From: Candidatus Zymogenus saltonus
GTDB lineage: Bacteria > Desulfobacterota > Zymogenia > Zymogenales > Zymogenaceae
Direction of reading: 5' to 3'
Assembly (NCBI GenBank): GCA_016929395.1
Contig: JAFGIX010000003.1
Coordinates: forward strand, 62,001 to 126,000
Length of the DNA stretch: 64,000 nt
Position 1 is the first letter of the stretch. Each line of letters starts with the position of its first letter. The position numbers and the translations under genes are program-made. The notes beneath the pieces are model-generated. The model was given only the letters and a program-made list of their open reading frames with translations. It was not told where the DNA came from and made no database searches. This document shows positions 24,772 to 25,281 of this stretch, one piece after another.

Positions 24772-24927
24772 TACGGTTACTCCTTAATAGGGTATTATAG
24801 AGAGGACTAACAAGAAGCTAGGATTTTACATATTAGTTTCGTCAGGTTATTGAGTACCTTCTTAAAAGATTAATAGTTACATCTATAGATTTTTCTGTTT
24901 TTTAAGGTATGTATAGTAAATTTAAGG

Positions 24928-25029
24928 GTAGCAGAATCTCGAATTTTGTCAAGGGCGGCCCAAAGGGCCGTCGCTTTTGGCGATTATAACCCTTGATAAA
25001 ATTCAATTAATCTATCGGGATTCTGCTAC
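24928..25029. repeat. 102-bp branched inverted-repeat element (MITE or structured RNA)
   Basis: GTAGCAGAATCTCG (24928-24941) pairs with CGGGATTCTGCTAC (25016-25029), 14 pairs with one wobble. The helix continues directly with AATTTTGTCAAGGG (24942-24955) against CCCTTGATAAAATT (24990-25003), again 14 pairs with one wobble, leaving a 12-base bulge on one side (25004-25015). Inside lie a tight hairpin CGGCCC-AAA-GGGCCG (24956-24970) and, touching it, TCGC-TTTTG-GCGA (24971-24983). The result on paper is a three-way junction. There is no T-run, so it is not a terminator. It could be a non-autonomous mobile element, a cis-regulatory leader or a small RNA. Confidence 0.8.
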
Positions 25030-25040
25030 AATAGAAATAA

Positions 25041-25142
25041 AGCGGGGGGAAAATGGTTTCAATTAAAACTCGAAGGACGCTAAACATTTTTGGTTATAAA
25101 ATGTTACTATATTTAGAAACCGAAATACCATTTTCCCCCGCT
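25041..25142. repeat. Second inverted-repeat element, G-rich arms
   Basis: AGCGGGGGGAAAATGGT (25041-25057) pairs with ACCATTTTCCCCCGCT (25127-25142), 16 pairs with one bulged G. Nested inside are CTAAA/TTTAG (25080-25084 with 25112-25116) and AACATTTT/AAAATGTT (25083-25090 with 25098-25105). GGTTTC/GAAACC is an alternative inner pairing. It is 102 bp long like its neighbour, 11 bp away, but unlike it in sequence. Confidence 0.75.
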
Positions 25143-25281
25143 AAAAAACTCAAATATCCTTTGAGTTCTCAAAATTCGGAAGAAACACATATCAGAAGCG
25201 TCTATTCTAAAACCTAACAATATCTTAAAATGCGGTATCTGTCTATTTCTTAGGCCAATTTGACAGATTCCCCCCACCGGC

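Follow-up and report, generated by a model that had tools for sequence, protein, structure and literature searches.

Several non-autonomous, transposon-like repeats (MITEs) are known to carry promoters, among them the Correia repeat enclosed elements (PMC10969869). The Correia elements, found in Neisseria, are short, non-coding and dispersed, have terminal inverted repeats and often lie upstream of genes, and their sigma70-like promoters drive the adjacent genes (PMC10969869). MITEAba12, BrickBuilt, QMITE1 and SonMITE_1 are likewise non-autonomous and contain sigma70-like promoter sequences (PMC10969869). The element described here, from Candidatus Zymogenus, resembles the Correia elements in being short, non-coding and dispersed, with terminal inverted repeats and promoter-like sequences, and by analogy is proposed to work alike. 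It differs from them in sequence and host, is longer, and has promoter-like arms that sit inside the element, some 90 bp from its left end and outside the terminal repeats. Its ends, found in Candidatus Zymogenus, also appear to differ from the Correia repeat. Correia elements have a TA target duplication, whereas that of the Zymogenus element is probably 8 bp long. No sequence relation to the other four MITEs was seen: plasmid and phage collections contained no match to the element, and in the genomes searched the family occurs in one genus alone. The ends resemble those of the ISL3 family of insertion sequences (an 8-bp duplication, an A/T-rich target and similar first repeat bases). This is a lead only, and no ISL3 transposase was found in the four genomes of the host's family.

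The window, the whole 64,000-nucleotide stretch of DNA analysed, contains a 102-base feature (24928–25029) that a sequence-only reading had described as a three-way junction closed by a bulged 28-bp helix. The fold is genuine. On the + strand, positions 24920–25040 have a minimum free energy (MFE) of -54.4 kcal/mol (z -8.4 against dinucleotide shuffles), a stability matched by 0 of 200 shuffles; the - strand gives z -7.2. The described architecture was found as stated: an outer 14-bp pairing of 24928–24941 with 25016–25029 (single T.G wobble at 24939/25018), an inner 14-bp pairing of 24942–24955 with 24990–25003 (single G.T wobble at 24948/24997), a 12-nt one-sided bulge (25004–25015) and two abutting hairpins, the second of which has 5 bp in the MFE structure (TCGCT-TTT-GGCGA). 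A scan of the region for terminator-like sites returned none. The only ORFs are tiny and none in the element is convincing (the longest overlapping it is 54 aa and runs beyond the element end), and the start of the 3-hydroxyacyl-CoA dehydrogenase gene (24771, Pfam 3HCDH) does lie 157 bases away.

What did not hold are the boundaries. Similarity among aligned copies reaches far beyond 24928–25029, and the unit ends at 24836 and 25186. The sequence-only reading had overlooked the terminal inverted repeats, the flanking 8-bp direct repeat and a second palindrome at 25041–25142. The features of the window copy are as follows.

24828–24835, no strand: left flank ACATATTA, probable target-site duplication, 7/8 identical to 25187–25194
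24836–25186, + strand: whole dispersed element, read as a MITE, 351 bp; ends set by a terminal-repeat profile, and three full-length copies can be aligned over their whole length
24836–24866, - strand: left terminal inverted repeat, reading outward ...GGTACTCAATAACCTGACGAAAC; profile score 28.0 bits, and motif search
24925–24952, - strand: left helix arm, outward and promoter-like, TTGACA-N16-TACCCT with TGC before the -10, toward the 3HCDH gene; pattern match G000:C3:86925-86952
24928–25029, + strand: core, the bulged 28-bp helix closing a three-way junction, the feature first noticed; folding and covariation
24992–25034, + strand: right helix arm, outward and promoter-like, TTGATA followed by the extended -10 TGCTACAAT; window sequence, with pattern and alignment in other copies
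25041–25142, + strand: right-wing palindrome (GCGGGGGGAAAATGGT ... ACCATTTTCCCCCGC); fold z -4.7, kept in other copies
25156–25186, + strand: right terminal inverted repeat, reading outward ...AGTTCTCAAAATTCGGAAGAAAC; profile score 29.2 bits, and motif search
25187–25194, no strand: right flank ACATATCA, probable target-site duplication, 7/8 identical to 24828–24835

Complete units are about 330–386 bp long. Their terminal inverted repeats (5'-GGTTCATCCGATTAATGAGTACC) span ~23–31 bp, and within an element each end is an imperfect inverted copy of the other. When the flanks of the nine elements with both ends were compared in different registers, identity peaked at 8 bp, where 42/72 positions matched against a null mean of 31.2 (p 0.0015, or about 0.02 once the 12 duplication lengths tried are corrected for). 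The duplications are degraded and several copies have no recognisable one. The element probably generates an 8-bp duplication of an A/T-rich target.

The search for further copies of 24928–25029 proposed by the sequence-only reading found them both in the window's own assembly (G000) and in G001, the one other genome of Candidatus Zymogenus compared, whose assembly is fragmented into about 550 contigs; target duplications were degraded, with 7/8 positions retained in the window copy. By DNA search, G000 holds two further, diverged copies of the core, on contigs C63 (86%) and C27 (72%), and among relatives real copies were found in G001 only. Searching with a full G001 copy (C223:642-987, 346 bp) gave 22 places in that genome and 4 in G000. 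At E up to 0.01, a covariance model of the core detected 3 loci in G000 and 6 loci in G001, and two extra rows were the reverse strand of loci already counted; it matched none of the 57 remaining genomes. Reading outward, the end motif GGTACNCAWWAWYCGGAWGAAC is found at 36 places in G001 and at 4 in G000, with 0 in both for the reversed-pattern control. Across 84,980 species genomes, a pattern scan matched only contigs of Candidatus Zymogenus sp. CSMAG_2390. Two other candidates were rejected: a viral-contig match (L178) was a chance 22-mer with the rest of the element absent, and a weak match in G018 (L009) had none of the element in its surroundings. Among the genomes searched, only those of Candidatus Zymogenus contain the family. 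One G001 contig (C480, 9.7 kb; L036, L027 and L076) has three intergenic gaps ~1 kb apart, each with one element end.

Orthologous gaps were compared by finding, in G000, the genes that flank the G001 copies. The G000 gaps at kdsB, leuD, atpF and one further gene pair (L039) are without the element that is present in G001, and the gap lengths at these loci differ between the genomes by about one element length. At the last of these, the 72-bp G001 copy interrupts a terminator T-tract that is unbroken in G000. The window locus is the reverse case: its gap measures 510 bp in G000, where it is filled, versus 191 bp in G001, and the neighbours (3HCDH, a TauE-like transporter, then an asparaginyl-tRNA-synthetase-like gene) are common to both species. 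An element remnant was considered at the G001 orthologue of this site, where a left-end 10-mer (CGTCAGGTTA) is shared, and was dismissed when the alignment proved no better than that of shuffled sequence. Internally deleted copies of 72, 170, 186 and 239 bp retain both ends. On G001 contig C149 (L069) there is also a ~60-bp miniature that consists of little besides two facing ends; its flanks are ATGCAAAA and ACACAAAA.

The sequence-only reading had left two choices, a MITE or a structured RNA, and the copies, the terminal repeats, the degraded 8-bp duplication, the filled and empty sites and the miniatures all speak for the first. At 351 bp the element is short (under ~600 bp) and non-coding, and it shows what MITEs are recognised by: terminal inverted repeats, a probable target-site duplication, and multiple scattered copies whose sites are filled in one species and empty in the other. 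The 102-base feature is very probably the central part of an old MITE that is specific to Candidatus Zymogenus. The suggestion that it might be a recent mobile element fails for this genome, as the copies are mostly 70–86% identical; in addition, the argG–argH gap holds element pieces in both species, so some insertions are older than the species split. The end-motif search showed no gene-length pair of ends, and neither it nor the ISL3 search turned up a transposase with such ends. The element's movement would have depended on a transposase supplied in trans that the assemblies no longer show. It appears to be a new, apparently undescribed family of a known kind, and a striking fold in an uncultured bacterium would thereby be explained as part of a genus-specific MITE.

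The two arms of the long helix look like promoters facing outward. The left arm is the best-conserved segment of the element (81–100% among copies, against 7–53% for the adjoining left wing). The pattern TTGACA-N13-17-TGCTANNNT has 13 matches in each of G000 and G001 versus 1 for the reversed control in each, mostly outside the element, and is therefore a genuine promoter layout in these genomes. In the right arm, the L002 and L008 copies read TTGACA-N20-TATAAT with TGC. The right-arm spacing is 20 in most copies and 28 in the window copy, compared with a normal 16–18, which makes the right promoter doubtful, except as an extended -10 promoter. A generic promoter scan of the region called neither arm. 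Whether the arms are active promoters is close to an even call, falling slightly on the side of no.

Orientation is also biased. Of 15 right ends, 11 face gene starts, and of 20 left ends, 16 face gene stops (Fisher p 0.0024), the gene calls being longest ORFs and hence approximate. The window copy runs against this trend: the left end faces the start of 3HCDH and the right end faces the stop of the transporter. Many left ends in G001 lie only about 5–35 bp past the stop codon of the upstream gene; their positions suggest that insertion favours the 3' ends of genes, or terminators. The long helix would result from two outward sigma70-type promoters placed back to back, one the inverted repeat of the other (TTGACAAAATTC...GATTCTGCTANNNT), and an inserted copy could drive or add transcription of adjacent genes. 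The RNA fold would then be mainly a by-product, which any read-through transcript would still form. If the arms are active, this would be one more mobile element that spreads promoters, an idea that the orientation bias makes testable. The stronger proposal, that the hairpin arms are a conserved promoter pair whose oriented insertion just past stop codons rewires the next gene and is selected for doing so, is unlikely.

The high stability of the core fold would also suit a small RNA or cis-regulatory leader selected at the RNA level and dispersed as a family. The copies often lie between one gene's end and another's start, and hairpin 1 of the L008 copy still pairs despite its altered sequence. 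The covariation check that had been proposed was run on seven related cores: 91% of cells pair, only 5 pairs show two-sided changes and the score is above that of 500/500 shuffles, although kinship alone among so few sequences can beat such shuffles. The long arms, moreover, carry many unpaired changes. An RNA under selection on the + strand should favour G.T over A.C faults. A hand alignment of eight copies gave 19 G.T and 15 A.C on that strand, about equal and favouring neither strand, so the claim that the wobbles imply selection at the RNA level fails. An Rfam search of the core returned no match up to E = 1, gene context is not fixed and the miniature copies have no core at all. This evidence leans against a selected RNA, which we regard as improbable; a very strong fold with wobbles, it warns, need not be a functional RNA.

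The orientation bias toward downstream gene starts and the conserved promoter-like arm could instead reflect an immobile promoter or leader cassette, common to many genes in the manner of a regulon. The linked genes are not the same in the two species, however, and the element is missing upstream of the same genes in the other species at five loci; where orthologous genes lack it, at atpF and kdsB, native promoters are in place. Terminal inverted repeats with a direct repeat outside them are also at odds with such a cassette, and its probability is slightly lower again than that of the RNA. Lowest of all is that of a REP/BIME-like extragenic palindrome mobilised by a RAYT (Y1) transposase: the element is palindromic, intergenic and multicopy as these are, but its terminal inverted repeats are long, it probably duplicates 8 bp of target, and complete units measure 330–386 bp. 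The old MITE remains the preferred reading.

A separate perfect palindrome, GACAAGGGGCTTAAGCCCCTTGTC or its variant AATGGGTTTAAACCCATT, occurs between genes at 21 places in G000 (e.g. L148–L164) and 29 in G001; two other genera of the family lack it, and the control gave 0. In several G001 elements it stands in place of the apex of the right-wing hairpin. Finally, an in-frame TGA is conserved in both species within a gene reading ...CDTYGNILPC-I-(TGA)-ENKRLGGYARRATLING... (G001 C428, L040; G000:C22:38000-38650, L143). In the alignment a GC-rich stretch lies directly downstream of the TGA, and the gene possibly encodes a selenoprotein.
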